From positions 1-64,000 of the forward strand of contig NZ_SRIO01000015.1 in the NCBI RefSeq assembly GCF_004684205.1: a stretch of 64,000 nt of DNA, given 5' to 3'. Positions 36,821-42,488 of the stretch are shown here, one piece after another. The notes under the pieces are model-generated. The model searched no databases. It saw only the letters and a list, made by a program, of their open reading frames with translations, and had not been told where the DNA came from. The number at the start of each line of letters is the position of its first letter. The first letter of the stretch is position 1. A program made the translations under genes and the position numbers. This DNA is from Candidatus Macondimonas diazotrophica (lineage in GTDB: Bacteria > Pseudomonadota > Gammaproteobacteria > UBA5335).

Positions 36821-36845
36821 CCCCGAATCAGGTCACGATTCGGGG
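36821..36845 (-). terminator. Hairpin spanning the ectR stop codon
   Basis: Perfect 9-bp arms CCCCGAATC/GATTCGGGG around a 7-base loop; the TGA of ectR is in the loop. A short second stem CGGTG/CACCG lies downstream on the minus strand. A terminator function is likely though no T-run is present. Confidence 0.5.
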
Positions 36846-37435
36846 CTCGAGGAGAGCTCTTGCTGATCCAGGGCGCCGATCGCCAGCATCGGTGCCGCAT
36901 CGATATGCCCGGCGTCCATCATCCCGGCAACCCTCTGCAGTGCAGCCAGGATCATGTGCTGTTCCCAGCTCTGCAGCGCGTTGAATTCACGAATGAAATG
37001 CTCTTGGAGCGGCTGCGGGGCATCACGCAAAACATCCTCTCCGTCCGGCCCCAAACGCAAGAACACCTTCCGCTTGTCACTGCGCGCCCGCTCTCGAACG
37101 ATGAGCCGGCGTGCGGACAAGCGATCGAGGATGCTGGTCACAGTGCCTTGGCTGAGACTGATCTGACGCGCCAGATCGCCTACGGTAATTTCACCCTTCT
37201 GATGAATCGTTCGCAGCACCAGTAGTTGCGGGGCCGTCAGCCCAGCGGTTTTCATGAGATGACGGGAGCGCAGATCGGTCGCTCGCATAATGCGACGCAG
37301 CGCGACCAAGACCTCAGCAATGACCTCCACAGAAGACTCCCGTGAGATTCGGCAATGGCGAGACCACGATTCTAGCAGCGCGCCGAGGTCCGCAGACCAT
37401 GCAGCCTGACGATCGCGCCACGATGGATTCGTCAT
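36833..37435 (-). CDS. ectR: MarR-family regulator, probable EctR
   Basis: A 200-residue winged-helix repressor. MarR fold: LRSRHLMKTAGLTAPQLLVLRTIHQKGEITVGDLARQISLSQGTVTSILDRLSARRLI, then the wing VRERARSDKRKVFLRLGPDGEDVL, and a C-terminal dimerisation helix. It is divergent from ectA with a 270-bp spacer that contains the ectoine promoter. In Methylomicrobium the MarR-type EctR represses ectABC-ask by binding at the -10 region. The ATG at 37435 gives a normal MarR N terminus; the long open frame upstream runs through the promoter and is unlikely to be translated. Control of the neighbouring fatty-acid genes instead cannot be excluded. Confidence 0.75.
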   Translation of the reverse strand: MTNPSWRDRQAAWSADLGALLESWSRHCRISRESSVEVIAEVLVALRRIMRATDLRSRHLMKTAGLTAPQLLVLRTIHQKGEITVGDLARQISLSQGTVTSILDRLSARRLIVRERARSDKRKVFLRLGPDGEDVLRDAPQPLQEHFIREFNALQSWEQHMILAALQRVAGMMDAGHIDAAPMLAIGALDQQELSSSPES

Positions 37436-37485: not shown

Positions 37486-37514
37486 TTGCCCGGATAAAGA
37501 ATTTTGTATACAAT
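37486..37514 (+). promoter_or_regulatory. Sigma70 promoter of the ectoine operon
   Basis: TTGCCC (37486-37491), a 17-base spacer and TACAAT (37509-37514; five of six matches to TATAAT). It would start transcription near 37521 and leave a leader of about 185 bases before ectA. Confidence 0.6.
37504..37513. promoter_or_regulatory. Perfect palindrome, candidate EctR operator
   Basis: TTGTATACAA is perfectly self-complementary and has the TTG-N4-CAA layout of many MarR operators. It overlaps the last bases of the spacer and the -10 of the ectoine promoter, the same placement reported for EctR1 in Methylomicrobium. Confidence 0.5.
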
Positions 37515-37705
37515 GGATTTTTTCGGCGTGAATTGTACCCGCCAGAAACTGACACACAATAGCCAAGAAAACAAAAGCTGCATAGACAATAATATATCAC
37601 CATGCCCGACACGGATCAGCGCTTGGCGAAACTGTTTACCAAGTTGAACTCTCGGGTATTTGCATTGCATAGAAACGAGTTTATTCGAGAAACCGAGATC
37701 GAATC

Positions 37706-38266
37706 ATGAAACCCTCTCATCATCCCGAGCCTTACCCTATGGGGAACGGCGCCGGCGATGCCCATCCGGCGCTGCACCTGCGTAGCCCCACTCCGGACGA
37801 TGGCGTGGCGGTTTTCGAACTGATTGCCCGCTGCCCCCCTTTGGATCCCAATTCCCGTTACTGCAATCTGCTGCAGTGCAGCCACTTTGCCCAGACCTCG
37901 ATCATCGCGCACGCGGAAAACGCCGCGAAGGCTTTGGGTTTTGTCTCGGGCTATCGGGTTCCGGACCGCCCCGACACCCTCTTTGTCTGGCAGGTCGCAG
38001 TGGATGAGGCAGCACGGGGCACCGGCTTGGGCTCACGCCTGCTGGAGGCACTACTCACCCGGCCTGCGCTGGCGGATTGCCGTTATTTGGAGACCACGAT
38101 CGGCCCCGACAATCGGGCATCCTGGCGACTGTTCGAGCGGCTGGCCAAGCAGTTCGGCGCGGTAATCGAGACGACCACTTTGTTTGAATCCCAACGCCAT
38201 TTCTCCGGGCTGCACCCGGATGAAATCCTGCTCCGGATCGGACCGCTCGAACGAATCGCGGACTGA
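37706..38266 (+). CDS. ectA: EctA, L-2,4-diaminobutyrate N-acetyltransferase
   Basis: GNAT enzyme of 186 residues making N4-acetyl-L-2,4-diaminobutyrate from diaminobutyrate and acetyl-CoA. Family landmarks: LHLRSPTPDDGVAVFELI, PPLDPNSRYCNLLQCSHFAQTSIIA, WQVAVDEAARGTGLGSRLL (acetyl-CoA loop) and TIGPDNRASWRLFERLA. First gene of the operon ectA-ectB-ectC-ectD-ask on the plus strand. The leader is divergent from ectR. The N terminus carries a poorly conserved 18-residue extension typical of the family. Confidence 0.94.
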   Translation: MKPSHHPEPYPMGNGAGDAHPALHLRSPTPDDGVAVFELIARCPPLDPNSRYCNLLQCSHFAQTSIIAHAENAAKALGFVSGYRVPDRPDTLFVWQVAVDEAARGTGLGSRLLEALLTRPALADCRYLETTIGPDNRASWRLFERLAKQFGAVIETTTLFESQRHFSGLHPDEILLRIGPLERIAD

Positions 38267-38326: not shown

Positions 38327-39601
38327 ATGGAGATTTTCAACGAACTTGAATCATCCGCGCAGTCTTATGCGCGTTCTTTCCCGACGGTTTTCAACCGCGC
38401 CCAAGGCGCCGCTCTCCATGACGAGAACGGCATGAGCTACATCGACTTTCTCTCGGGTGCAGGCTCACTGAACTATGGCCACAACCATCCCGTGTTGAAA
38501 AATGCCTTGCTGGCCTACATCCAGAACGACGGCATCACCCACGGGCTGGATATGCATACCGCAGCGAAAGCGGATTTCCTGCGCGCGTTCCGCGACTGCA
38601 TCCTGGTCCCGCGCTCGCTGGATTACCGCATGCAGTTCACCGGACCGACCGGCGCCAATGCGGTCGAAGCGGCGCTGAAGCTGGCCCGCAAGGTCAAAGG
38701 CCGCTCTTCGATCATTGCCTTCACCAACGGTTTCCATGGCGCCACGCTGGGCGCGCTGGCCGCCACCGGGAATCAACATCACCGAGGTGGCGCCGGCGTC
38801 CCGTTGACCGGGATCACCCGCATGCCATATGCCGGCTATCTGGGTCGCGACGCCGATACCCTGCGTTATCTCGACAAGATGCTGTCCGACCCGTCGAGCG
38901 GCATCGATCACCCGGCAGCGGTCCTCGTCGAAACCATCCAGGGTGAAGGCGGACTCAACGCGGGCAGCCCGGTGTGGCTGCAAGGCCTGCAACGGCTATG
39001 CCGCAAGCACGATATGCTCCTGATCGTCGATGACATCCAAGCTGGATGTGGACGAACGGGCACCTTTTTCAGCTTCGAGCCTGCTGGCATCACGCCCGAC
39101 ATGGTGACGCTGTCCAAATCCCTGAGTGGCTACGGCCTGCCGATGGCCCTGCTGCTCTACCGGCCCGAACTCGATATCTGGAAACCCGGCGAACACAACG
39201 GCACGTTCCGCGGAAACAACCACGCCTTTGTTACCGCGACGGCGGCGCTGGAGCATTTCTGGCGTGACGAGACGTTCGCCGAATCGGTGCGCGCCAAAGC
39301 AGCCCTGATGACCCAAGGGCTGCAGCGGATCAGCGAGCGCGTCGGTGTCACGCATCTGCGCGTCAAGGGCCGCGGTCTGATGCAGGGGCTGGAATGCAAT
39401 GACGGCGAGACCGCCTCGCGCATCAGTCAGGCCGCATTCCAGCGAGGGCTGATCATCGAGACCTCCGGCAATCGCGGACAGGTGCTCAAATGCCTGTGCC
39501 CGCTCACCATAACCGACGCCGAACTGGGTGAAGGATTGAGCCGGCTGGCTGACAGCGCCCTAGAGGTGTTAAGCGGCACGTTGGCCGCCTGCGCCTCCTG
39601 A
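38327..39601 (+). CDS. ectB: EctB, L-2,4-diaminobutyrate aminotransferase
   Basis: Class III PLP aminotransferase, 424 residues, converting aspartate semialdehyde and glutamate to diaminobutyrate and 2-oxoglutarate, the first committed ectoine step. Evidence: [91 protein letters not shown] and the PLP lysine in [16 protein letters not shown] lies nine bases before the ATG. It follows ectA by 60 bases. Confidence 0.96.
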
Positions 39602-39641: not shown

Positions 39642-40040
39642 ATGATCGTTCGCCATCTTCCTGAAGCCATCGCATCCGGCCGTCGCATCCAGAGCACAGG
39701 GTGGGAAAGCACCCGGCTCGTGCTCAAGAATGACAATGCCGGTTTTTCGTTCCATATCACCACGATCTACCGTGGCGCCGAATTGCCGATGCACTACCGC
39801 AACCACATCGAATCGGTGTACTGCATCAGCGGCAGCGGCGAGATCGAAACCGTCGCCGATGGGAAGATCTATCCCATCGCCCCGGGCACGATCTACGTGC
39901 TGGACCAGCACGACCAGCACATCCTGCGCGCCGAGACCGAAATGGTCATGGCTTGCGTATTCAACCCACCGCTACACGGCACCGAGGTTCATGACGCCGA
40001 TGGCGTTTACCCGCTCGAAGCCGAAGCGGTGACTGACTAA
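39642..40040 (+). CDS. ectC: EctC, L-ectoine synthase
   Basis: Cupin enzyme of 132 residues that cyclises N4-acetyl-diaminobutyrate to ectoine by loss of water. Family marks: [77 protein letters not shown] and [19 protein letters not shown]. The metal-binding Tyr/His/Glu residues of the cupin (E, Y, H in the central strand motifs) are present. Forms the core of the operon; 24 bases separate it from ectD. Confidence 0.96.
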
Positions 40041-40064: not shown

Positions 40065-40985
40065 ATGCCCTCGGAAGCGATAGACCGCTATCCCTCCCGC
40101 GCCGGACGCCCTGCTTCGGTGACGCCTCGGACAGATCCCGTCGTTTATGCAGACGCGAATCGGGAACCACCCCTAGCGCGGCGCACCATCGCCAACTATG
40201 AGAATCAGGGATTTCTGAATCTTTATACCTTGTTCACCGATGCGGAGATCACCGCCATGCAGGCCGAACTCGCGCGCCTGCGCCATGACGCGCTGATCAT
40301 GCAACGCAGCGAGGCGATCCGTGAACAGGAAACCGGCGACCTACGCTCGTTGTTTCGCGTTCACCAGCTCAGCCCGCTGTTCGCCGCCGTTGCCGCCGAT
40401 CCGCGGCTGGTGGACCTGGCCCGCTACATCCTTGATGACGAGGTTTATATCCACCAGTCCCGGCTTAATTACAAGCCTGGCTTCGGTGGCAAGGAGTTCT
40501 ATTGGCATTCGGACTTCGAAACCTGGCATGTGGAAGATGGGATGCCGCGTATGCGGGCGCTGAGCGTCTCCATTTCGCTCACACCCAATCACGCCCACAA
40601 TGGCCCCCTGTTGCTGATTCCCGGCTCCCATCGCCGTTACGTGGTGTGCACCGGCGAAACACCGGAGAACCACTACCAGAAGTCCTTGGTGAAGCAGGAA
40701 ATCGGTGTCCCAAGCAAGCGTTGCCTCCGTCAGCTCGCCGAACAGGGCGGTGGCCTGGTCGCGGCGACCGGCCCAGCCGGCACGGTCACCGTGTTCGACT
40801 GCAATACGATGCACGGCTCCAACGGCAACATCACGCCTGATCCGCGCAGCAACGTGTTCTTTGTCTATAACGCCATGAGCAACCGCCTCTGTGAACCCTA
40901 TTGTGGCCACCCGCCTCGACCTGGATTCATTGCGGCCCGCGGCGAAGTCGAGCCCGTCCGCCCCACTCCGTTGCGGATTGGCTGA
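40065..40985 (+). CDS. ectD: EctD, ectoine 5-hydroxylase
   Basis: Fe(II)/2-oxoglutarate dioxygenase of 306 residues that makes 5-hydroxyectoine. The signature region FYWHSDFETWHVEDGMPRMR (about 144-163) carries the first two iron ligands (His, Asp); the third is in DCNTMHGSNGNITPDPRSNVFFVYN. The oxoglutarate Arg is in the same stretch. Presence means that the organism can make hydroxyectoine, a better protectant under heat and desiccation. Between ectC and the dedicated aspartate kinase gene. Confidence 0.95.
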   Translation: MPSEAIDRYPSRAGRPASVTPRTDPVVYADANREPPLARRTIANYENQGFLNLYTLFTDAEITAMQAELARLRHDALIMQRSEAIREQETGDLRSLFRVHQLSPLFAAVAADPRLVDLARYILDDEVYIHQSRLNYKPGFGGKEFYWHSDFETWHVEDGMPRMRALSVSISLTPNHAHNGPLLLIPGSHRRYVVCTGETPENHYQKSLVKQEIGVPSKRCLRQLAEQGGGLVAATGPAGTVTVFDCNTMHGSNGNITPDPRSNVFFVYNAMSNRLCEPYCGHPPRPGFIAARGEVEPVRPTPLRIG

Positions 40986-41051: not shown

Positions 41052-42488
41052 ATGACCCATACGGTGGAAAAGATCGGCGGCAGCTCGATGAGCAACTATG
41101 CTGCCGTGCGAGACAATATCATTCTGCGTCCCGGTAACCGATACAACCGCATCTTCGTCGTCTCGGCTTACAGTGGAATCACCAACCTGTTGCTCGAACA
41201 CAAGAAAACGGCCCAGCCCGGGGTATTCGGTTCGTTCGCTAATGCCCGTGATGAAGCGGCTTGGCGCGGCGAGCTGGCCAAGGTTCGCAAGCAGCTGCTT
41301 GAGATCAATCACGCCCTATTCACCGCCGCCATGGATCGCGCCGCGGCAAAATCCTTCATCGAGGAACGGCTGACGGCCGCCGAAAATTGCCTGAGCGACC
41401 TGGACCGTCTGTGCCGACACGGGCATTTCCAGCTCGACAGCCATCTCGCCACAGTCCGCGAAATGCTGGCCAGCCTCGGGGAAGCCCACAGCGCGTGGAA
41501 TCTCAGCCGACTGCTGGCCAATGAAGGGGTTCGCACCCGCTTTGTCGACCTCACCGGCTGGCATGCCGATGCCGACGCACCGGTTCCTTCACTGGATGAG
41601 CGAATCCGCCGCAGCTTCCAGAACATCGACCTCGCGCGCGAGCTGCCGATCGTCACCGGTTACGCCCATTGCGATGAAGGACTCATGGCGCGCTTCGATC
41701 GCGGTTACAGCGAAATGACGTTCAGCCGAGTCGCCGTCGTGACCGGCGCTGCCGAGGCCATCATTCACAAGGAATACCACCTGAGCAGCGCTGACCCGCT
41801 GGTCGTGGGTGCCGAACGCGTCGTCCCGATCGGGCGGACCAACTACGATGTCGCCGACCAGCTCGCCAACCTGGGCATGGAGGCGATCCACCCCCGGGCC
41901 GCCAAAGGCTTGCGGCAAGCCGGCATTTCCCTGCGCATCAAGAACACCTTCGAACCCGAGCACGGCGGCACGGTGATCACGCATGACCACGTCAGCGAAA
42001 AGCCCTGCGTCGAAATCATTGCCGGGCGCAAGAACGTCTATGCGCTGCAGCTGTTCGATCAGGACATGATGGGCCGTTTCGCGCATTACGATCACGCCCT
42101 GCTCACCACGCTGGAGCGCTTTGGTGCCGACATCATCACCAAGGACTGCAATGCCAACAGCCTGACACACTACTTGGCGTGCAACCTCAAGACCGTCAAG
42201 CGAATCCAGAAAACACTCGTGGAGCGTTTCGGGGAAGCGGAAATCGACGTACGCCGCGTGGCGCTGGTGTCCGCCATCGGCAGCGACATGCAGGTGCCGG
42301 GCCTGTTGGCGGAAACTGCCGCGGCCCTGGCCGAGGCAGGCATCTCCATCCTGGCCATGCACCAGTCGCTGCGGCAGGTCACCATGCAGTGCGTCATCGA
42401 CGAGCGCGATTACGACACGGCGATCCGGGCGCTGCACCGCCGATTGATCGAGCCGCACGACCACGGCATCGCGATCTGCGCCGCCTGA
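41052..42488 (+). CDS. ask: Ectoine-type aspartate kinase Ask_ect
   Basis: Phosphorylates aspartate to supply aspartate semialdehyde for ectoine. The 478-residue protein starts HTVEKIGGSSMSNYAAV (the kinase KxGGSS motif), with central DLTGWHADADAPVPSLDERI, IVTGYAHCDEGLMARFDRGYSEMTFSRVAVV, and C-terminal ACT domains (VALVSAIGSDMQVPGLLAETAAALAEAGISILAMHQS). It belongs to the isoenzyme found in ectoine operons, which is usually insensitive to threonine/lysine feedback. It follows ectD by 66 bases and closes the operon. Confidence 0.93.
   Translation: MTHTVEKIGGSSMSNYAAVRDNIILRPGNRYNRIFVVSAYSGITNLLLEHKKTAQPGVFGSFANARDEAAWRGELAKVRKQLLEINHALFTAAMDRAAAKSFIEERLTAAENCLSDLDRLCRHGHFQLDSHLATVREMLASLGEAHSAWNLSRLLANEGVRTRFVDLTGWHADADAPVPSLDERIRRSFQNIDLARELPIVTGYAHCDEGLMARFDRGYSEMTFSRVAVVTGAAEAIIHKEYHLSSADPLVVGAERVVPIGRTNYDVADQLANLGMEAIHPRAAKGLRQAGISLRIKNTFEPEHGGTVITHDHVSEKPCVEIIAGRKNVYALQLFDQDMMGRFAHYDHALLTTLERFGADIITKDCNANSLTHYLACNLKTVKRIQKTLVERFGEAEIDVRRVALVSAIGSDMQVPGLLAETAAALAEAGISILAMHQSLRQVTMQCVIDERDYDTAIRALHRRLIEPHDHGIAICAA

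Follow-up and report, generated by a model that had tools for sequence, protein, structure and literature searches.

A candidate EctR operator over the −10 element of the ectABCD-ask promoter in Candidatus Macondimonas diazotrophica

Introduction

The closest described system is EctR1 of Methylomicrobium alcaliphilum 20Z. As in the DNA studied here, its MarR gene lies upstream of the ect cluster (PMC5924519). EctR1 represses the ect genes, and at the distal of their two promoters it binds over the −10, to an A/T-rich pseudo-palindrome of two 8-bp half-sites set 2 bp apart, a layout that our site shares (PMC5924519). A preliminary description of our site had already noted that EctR1 binds over the ect −10 in Methylomicrobium, and the same source states this (PMC5924519).

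Related MarR-type systems share parts of this arrangement. CosR of Vibrio, like EctR, is a MarR-type repressor, in this case of ectABC-asp, and is 51% identical to EctR1 (PMC7876524). The CosR consensus, quoted in PMC8070244 as TTTGA-NN-TCTAA, has the same TTTG left half as our site. CosR is described as acting globally, on several osmolyte systems (PMC7876524), whereas the core pattern of our site is single in its genome. SlyA/MarR-family operators (TTAGCAAGCTAA) also pair a winged-helix MarR protein with a short TTAG/CTAA inverted repeat (PMC8070244), but they serve other target genes and have other central bases. No printed cross-genome logo of the EctR operator was found in the literature searched, which covered few subscription papers.

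Here, we analyze a stretch of 64 kb from Candidatus Macondimonas diazotrophica (the window). We propose, with a probability of about 0.9, that positions 37486-37514 are a sigma-70-type promoter of ectABCD-ask and that positions 37502-37514 within it are the operator of EctR, a MarR-type repressor encoded divergently. This promoter-operator arrangement is already known for EctR, and the window is another example of it.

Results

The region lies between ectR and a divergent ectABCD-ask cluster. On the plus strand are ectA (diaminobutyrate acetyltransferase, 37706..38266; TIGR02406), ectB (diaminobutyrate-2-oxoglutarate transaminase, 38327..39601; TIGR02407), ectC (ectoine synthase, 39642..40040; PF06339 and, above its curated cut-off, NF009806 (PRK13290)), ectD (ectoine hydroxylase, 40065..40985; TIGR02408) and ask (aspartate kinase of the PRK09181 type, 41052..42488; NF006614), with each TIGR model and NF006614 likewise matched above cut-off. 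On the minus strand is ectR (36833..37435 as the longest ATG frame), whose product aligns with those of its relatives and contains a MarR winged-helix domain (PF01047, E 2.8e-16). Seventeen NCBIfam families match this protein, all below their own cut-offs and none of them an EctR model, and a search of solved-structure sequences returned MarR relatives only. Over the aligned part, it shares 59% identity with EctR of Methylotuvimicrobium buryatense 5G (L118). In a tree built on few columns, with 70 of 134 inner branches open, its nearest neighbors are the proteins of loci L061 and L062, followed by other ectA-linked proteins. The window EctR thus appears to group with the EctR proteins of the studied lineages. 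The domain match and the likeness to EctR agree with the preliminary description, which had called the MarR neighbor an EctR, and the curated cut-offs identify the operon as ectABCD-ask.

The ectR gene probably starts at a GTG at 37330, giving a product of 165 aa, rather than at the ATG at 37435. Three features make this start likelier: GGGAG stands 6 nt 5' of the GTG; the resulting N-terminus, MEVIAEVLVALRR, is similar to MNRIEEVLVALRR of L003, from the same-family genome G004; and strong similarity between the longest-ATG product and its relatives begins only at about residue 38. With the GTG start, ectR and ectA would be separated by about 375 bp, and the operator would lie close to the midpoint. 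We also observe a 35-codon frame (MPDTDQRLAKLFTKLNSRVFALHRNEFIRETEIES) on the plus strand at 37603-37710; its terminal ATGA shares bases with the start of ectA, an overlap of the kind seen in translational coupling. Neither L061 nor L062 yielded such a frame.

Taken alone, the promoter match and the palindrome are weak evidence. The −35 hexamer TTGCCC (37486..37491, plus strand) and the −10 hexamer TACAAT (37509..37514, plus strand) were found by the promoter scan with a spacer of 17 bases, just as the preliminary description had placed them between ectR and ectA. Similar −35 hexamers occur at the two nearest loci: TTGGCA in the same N17 register at L062, and TTGCCA one base nearer the −10 (N16) at L061. 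The perfect palindrome claimed to lie over the −10 is likewise present, as TTGTATACAA at 37504-37513. It is a single copy in the window, with 0 in 100 shuffles, and a single copy in the host assembly (2.8 Mb, 94 contigs). Across the 1.2 kb scanned, however, shuffles predict 0.5 (sd 0.8) promoter matches of such quality against the 1 found. Perfect 10-bp palindromes of any sequence number 89 in the window, which scales to about 0.4 in 270 bp. The elements become convincing because a homologous site is conserved in relatives.

Relatives were collected by EctR searches of a genome collection and from named genome records. This gave 153 ectR loci in which 120 or more residues align, mostly best-scoring ones: the named-record sample is 80 of 539 confirmed relatives, and three of the genome-collection searches contributed the best 30 places each from 43, 113 and 163 matching genomes, the latter two lists overlapping. 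The counts leave out ectR matches with fewer than 120 aligned residues or E above 1e-4 (L025 included), L001, L002, L059 and L141 (the window again), and L058, L161 and L162 (repeats of L003, L061 and L062, respectively). We found ectA divergent from ectR at 118 of the 153 loci and on the same strand at one (L046); the other 34 have no ectA in the fetched flank. Removal of 13 exact duplicates left 105 distinct intergenic regions, among which same-genus near-duplicates stay (e.g., Microbulbifer).

The site is conserved across most of these regions. The pattern TTTNGTGTACNAT, which is neutral at positions 4 and 11, was derived from the first relatives, themselves among the 105, so that its counts are partly non-independent of its discovery: at least 9 of 11 positions match in 84 of the 105 regions, against 8.7 in dinucleotide shuffles, and at least 10 of 11 in 56, against 0.35. 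No site reaches 9/11 in 21 regions. Of the 84 sites, 64 have TACNAT, i.e., the −10 itself, as the right half of the operator. When a matrix is built from 81 of the sites, excluding those of the window, L061 and L062, its top match in the 64 kb, on both strands, is 37502-37514 with 16.85 bits; the next match has 10.78 and the consensus 26.6. In M. buryatense, which is related to the studied species M. alcaliphilum, the site is TTTAGTGTACTAT.

The core pattern is rare in whole genomes. There is one match to TTWGWRTACWAT in each of the host genome (G000), G374 (L061) and G375 (L062), the latter two being the genomes of the two best EctR matches, and it always lies between ectR and ectA. For the reversed control, a single match is found in four genomes together. 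The fourth genome, G004, has no match to TTWGWRTACWAT; the site has diverged there (at L003), and is thus not universal even among near relatives. Two further sequences of the host genome, CTTTGTGTACAAC and TTTTGAGTACAAC, fail to match TTWGWRTACWAT at the final base; the latter is close to the beginning of a rho-like frame. A regulator of the CosR kind would have several operators at osmolyte genes; the host has one TTWGWRTACWAT match in its 2.8 Mb and 94 contigs. This single match points to a local rather than a global regulator, although weaker sites may exist. Loose matches say little about this: at up to 3 mismatches, TTTTGTATACAAT has 87 + 80 matches in the host genome, compared with 48 + 58 for its reversed control.

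The window site is best read as a standard EctR operator with three changes. The conservation in 84 of 105 regions, the TACNAT right half, the matrix rank and the uniqueness of TTWGWRTACWAT all suggest that TTTTGTATACAAT (37502..37514, plus strand), centered on the palindrome, is the predicted EctR operator over the −10 of ectA. The preliminary description, in naming the palindrome a probable EctR operator, was very probably right. The inverted half-sites of the operator follow the 8-2-8 layout, as AATTTTGT-AT-ACAATGGA. The operator of M. alcaliphilum 20Z reportedly reads TATTTAGT-GT-ACTATATA, letters attributed to Mustakhimov et al. 2010; nothing relevant to them was among the literature matches listed.

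The three changes are all found elsewhere in the family. Compared with the family consensus TTTAGTGTACTAT, the window site differs at 3 of 13 positions (A4T, G7A and T11A), which together make the middle 10 bp completely symmetric. The window is alone among the 84 sites in having a perfect 10-bp palindrome. T4 occurs in 11 of the 84 sites, 8 of them beside an EctR with the ordinary helix (Ala97; 8/80), and A11 occurs in 22. The rarest change is A7, seen in only two sites (the window and L176); position 7 of Ala97-type sites is G in 76/80 and A in 1/80. The site was earlier thought to define a new operator variant. That claim is not supported, given that the site aligns in register at 10/13 positions and that T4, A11 and A7 are each seen at other loci. 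We also rejected a new operator class: the 10/13 consensus positions are in register, and T4 and A11 occur elsewhere singly or together. Both the T4 of ordinary-helix sites and the TTTG left half of the CosR consensus argue that the site is not a separate class.

A change in the EctR protein may accompany the altered left half. Residue 97, which by alignment with MarR proteins would lie within the recognition helix, is glycine in the EctR proteins of the window and of L061 and L062. Among ectA-linked proteins, T4 is found with 3/3 Gly97 versus 8/80 Ala97. The chance of this pairing is about 0.0017 when calculated by hand on the assumption of independent rows; the three carriers are neighbors on the tree and form only 1 independent pair, so the covariation stays a suggestion. 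A single comparison thus underlies the possible specificity shift of Gly97 with T4. It is rather unlikely that the window, L061 and L062 form a subgroup with a matched shift, in which a helix change from SQATVT to SQGTVT and a left-half change from TTTAG to (T/G/A)TTTG would weaken cross-recognition with ordinary EctR operators.

Gly97 also occurs away from ectA. It is present in 7 of the 153 EctR-like proteins, and 4 of these are not beside ectA. By eye, the 500 bp upstream of three of them (L004, L052 and L054) contain no clear canonical site. Two of these loci, L004 and L052, each encode a Gly97-helix EctR-like protein, lack ectA within the flank fetched and are nearly identical over an upstream stretch around CTTTGTATCGTAAACAATTTTAG. 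This stretch is a possible self-operator with wider spacing.

Some relatives show other site arrangements. In 12 of the 105 intergenic regions (L073, L075, L092, L126, L177, L178, L180, L184, L195, L202, L206 and L209), an EctR-type site ending in A directly follows a TATAAT-like box; four of the 12 score 8/11. A site just downstream of the likely −10, and not on it, is likely to represent a second promoter-operator layout. Many relatives, such as L032, L033, L035, L063, L064, L103 and L119, have a second inverted repeat (TTTAG....CTAA) about 14-24 bp downstream of the first operator, with the spacing judged by eye. Under a strict pattern, a second downstream operator is present at 19/80 Ala97 sites and at 0/3 Gly97 sites, the window included. 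TTGTAC at 37533-37538 of the window lies 29 bp off center and was rejected as a second operator. At L003, a poor operator match (2181-2193) is followed by a perfect 12-bp palindrome, TCTAATATTAGA (2203-2214), centered 21 bp downstream of it; this is perhaps a second or replaced operator.

Discussion

We suggest that EctR represses the ect operon by steric block. In the most likely working, an EctR dimer on TTTTGTATACAAT would occlude the −10 at low salt, blocking access of RNA polymerase, and high salt would relieve this block. We infer binding, repression and salt response at the window site by analogy with studied EctR systems. In M. alcaliphilum without ectR, the ect genes are still salt-induced (PMC5924519); EctR may therefore not be the salt switch.

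Other readings of the locus can be weighed against this one. The preliminary description had raised the possibility that the MarR protein controls the neighboring acyl-CoA ligase and alkB-like genes instead, in which case its adjacency to ectA would be incidental. The ectR, ligase and alkB-like genes do share a strand in the window, and a MarR-alkB link exists in the genus, since in G003, which belongs to this genus, a different MarR gene diverges from an alkB homologue. At that locus (L025, 12-1878), the MarR protein is 27% identical to the window EctR over 126 residues, and the alkB homologue is 49% identical to the alkB-like gene of the window. This MarR is not an EctR by similarity, and no EctA match was found in G003. 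Against control of these neighbors, 0 of the 152 other ectR loci have an acyl-CoA ligase or alkB-like gene (tblastn, E<=1e-20), in a sample where about half of the loci extend some 1.5 kb past ectR, so that the position of the ligase is visible and that of alkB, 2 kb away, often is not; ectA, by comparison, is divergent at 118 of 153. We regard this reading as highly improbable. We give as little credence to the idea that the promoter is real but the palindrome arises incidentally from an A+T-rich −10, with EctR binding elsewhere in the intergenic region. TACAAT is by itself a good −10, and the position of the operator is not fixed, given the 12 regions in which it follows a TATAAT-like box. 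However, the left half and center, which lie outside the −10, are also conserved (T2 in 79, T3 in 78, G5 in 78 and G7 in 76 of 80), and of the top 8 matrix matches in the window, the only ones to fall within the ectR/ectA region are 37502-37514 on its two strands.

Autoregulation would add to an EctR operator over the ectA −10 and not replace it. The site lies between divergent genes, a minus-strand −10 for ectR (TACAAA) could coincide in part with its palindrome, and EctR of M. alcaliphilum is reported to control its own gene (PMC5924519). On the other hand, no minus-strand promoter passed the scan of 1.2 kb, and for Methylophaga thalassica no EctR autoregulation is reported (PMC5924519). That the same site also controls ectR is a tentative proposal, somewhat less likely to be true than false.

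The window offers a clean, testable EctR operator beyond the handful of methylotrophs that EctR studies have covered (PMC5924519). The comparison gives the appearance of the EctR operator across 105 distinct intergenic regions, second layout included. A defined and conserved operator would also make for straightforward reporter and binding assays for the signal of EctR, which is reported to be unknown (PMC5924519).
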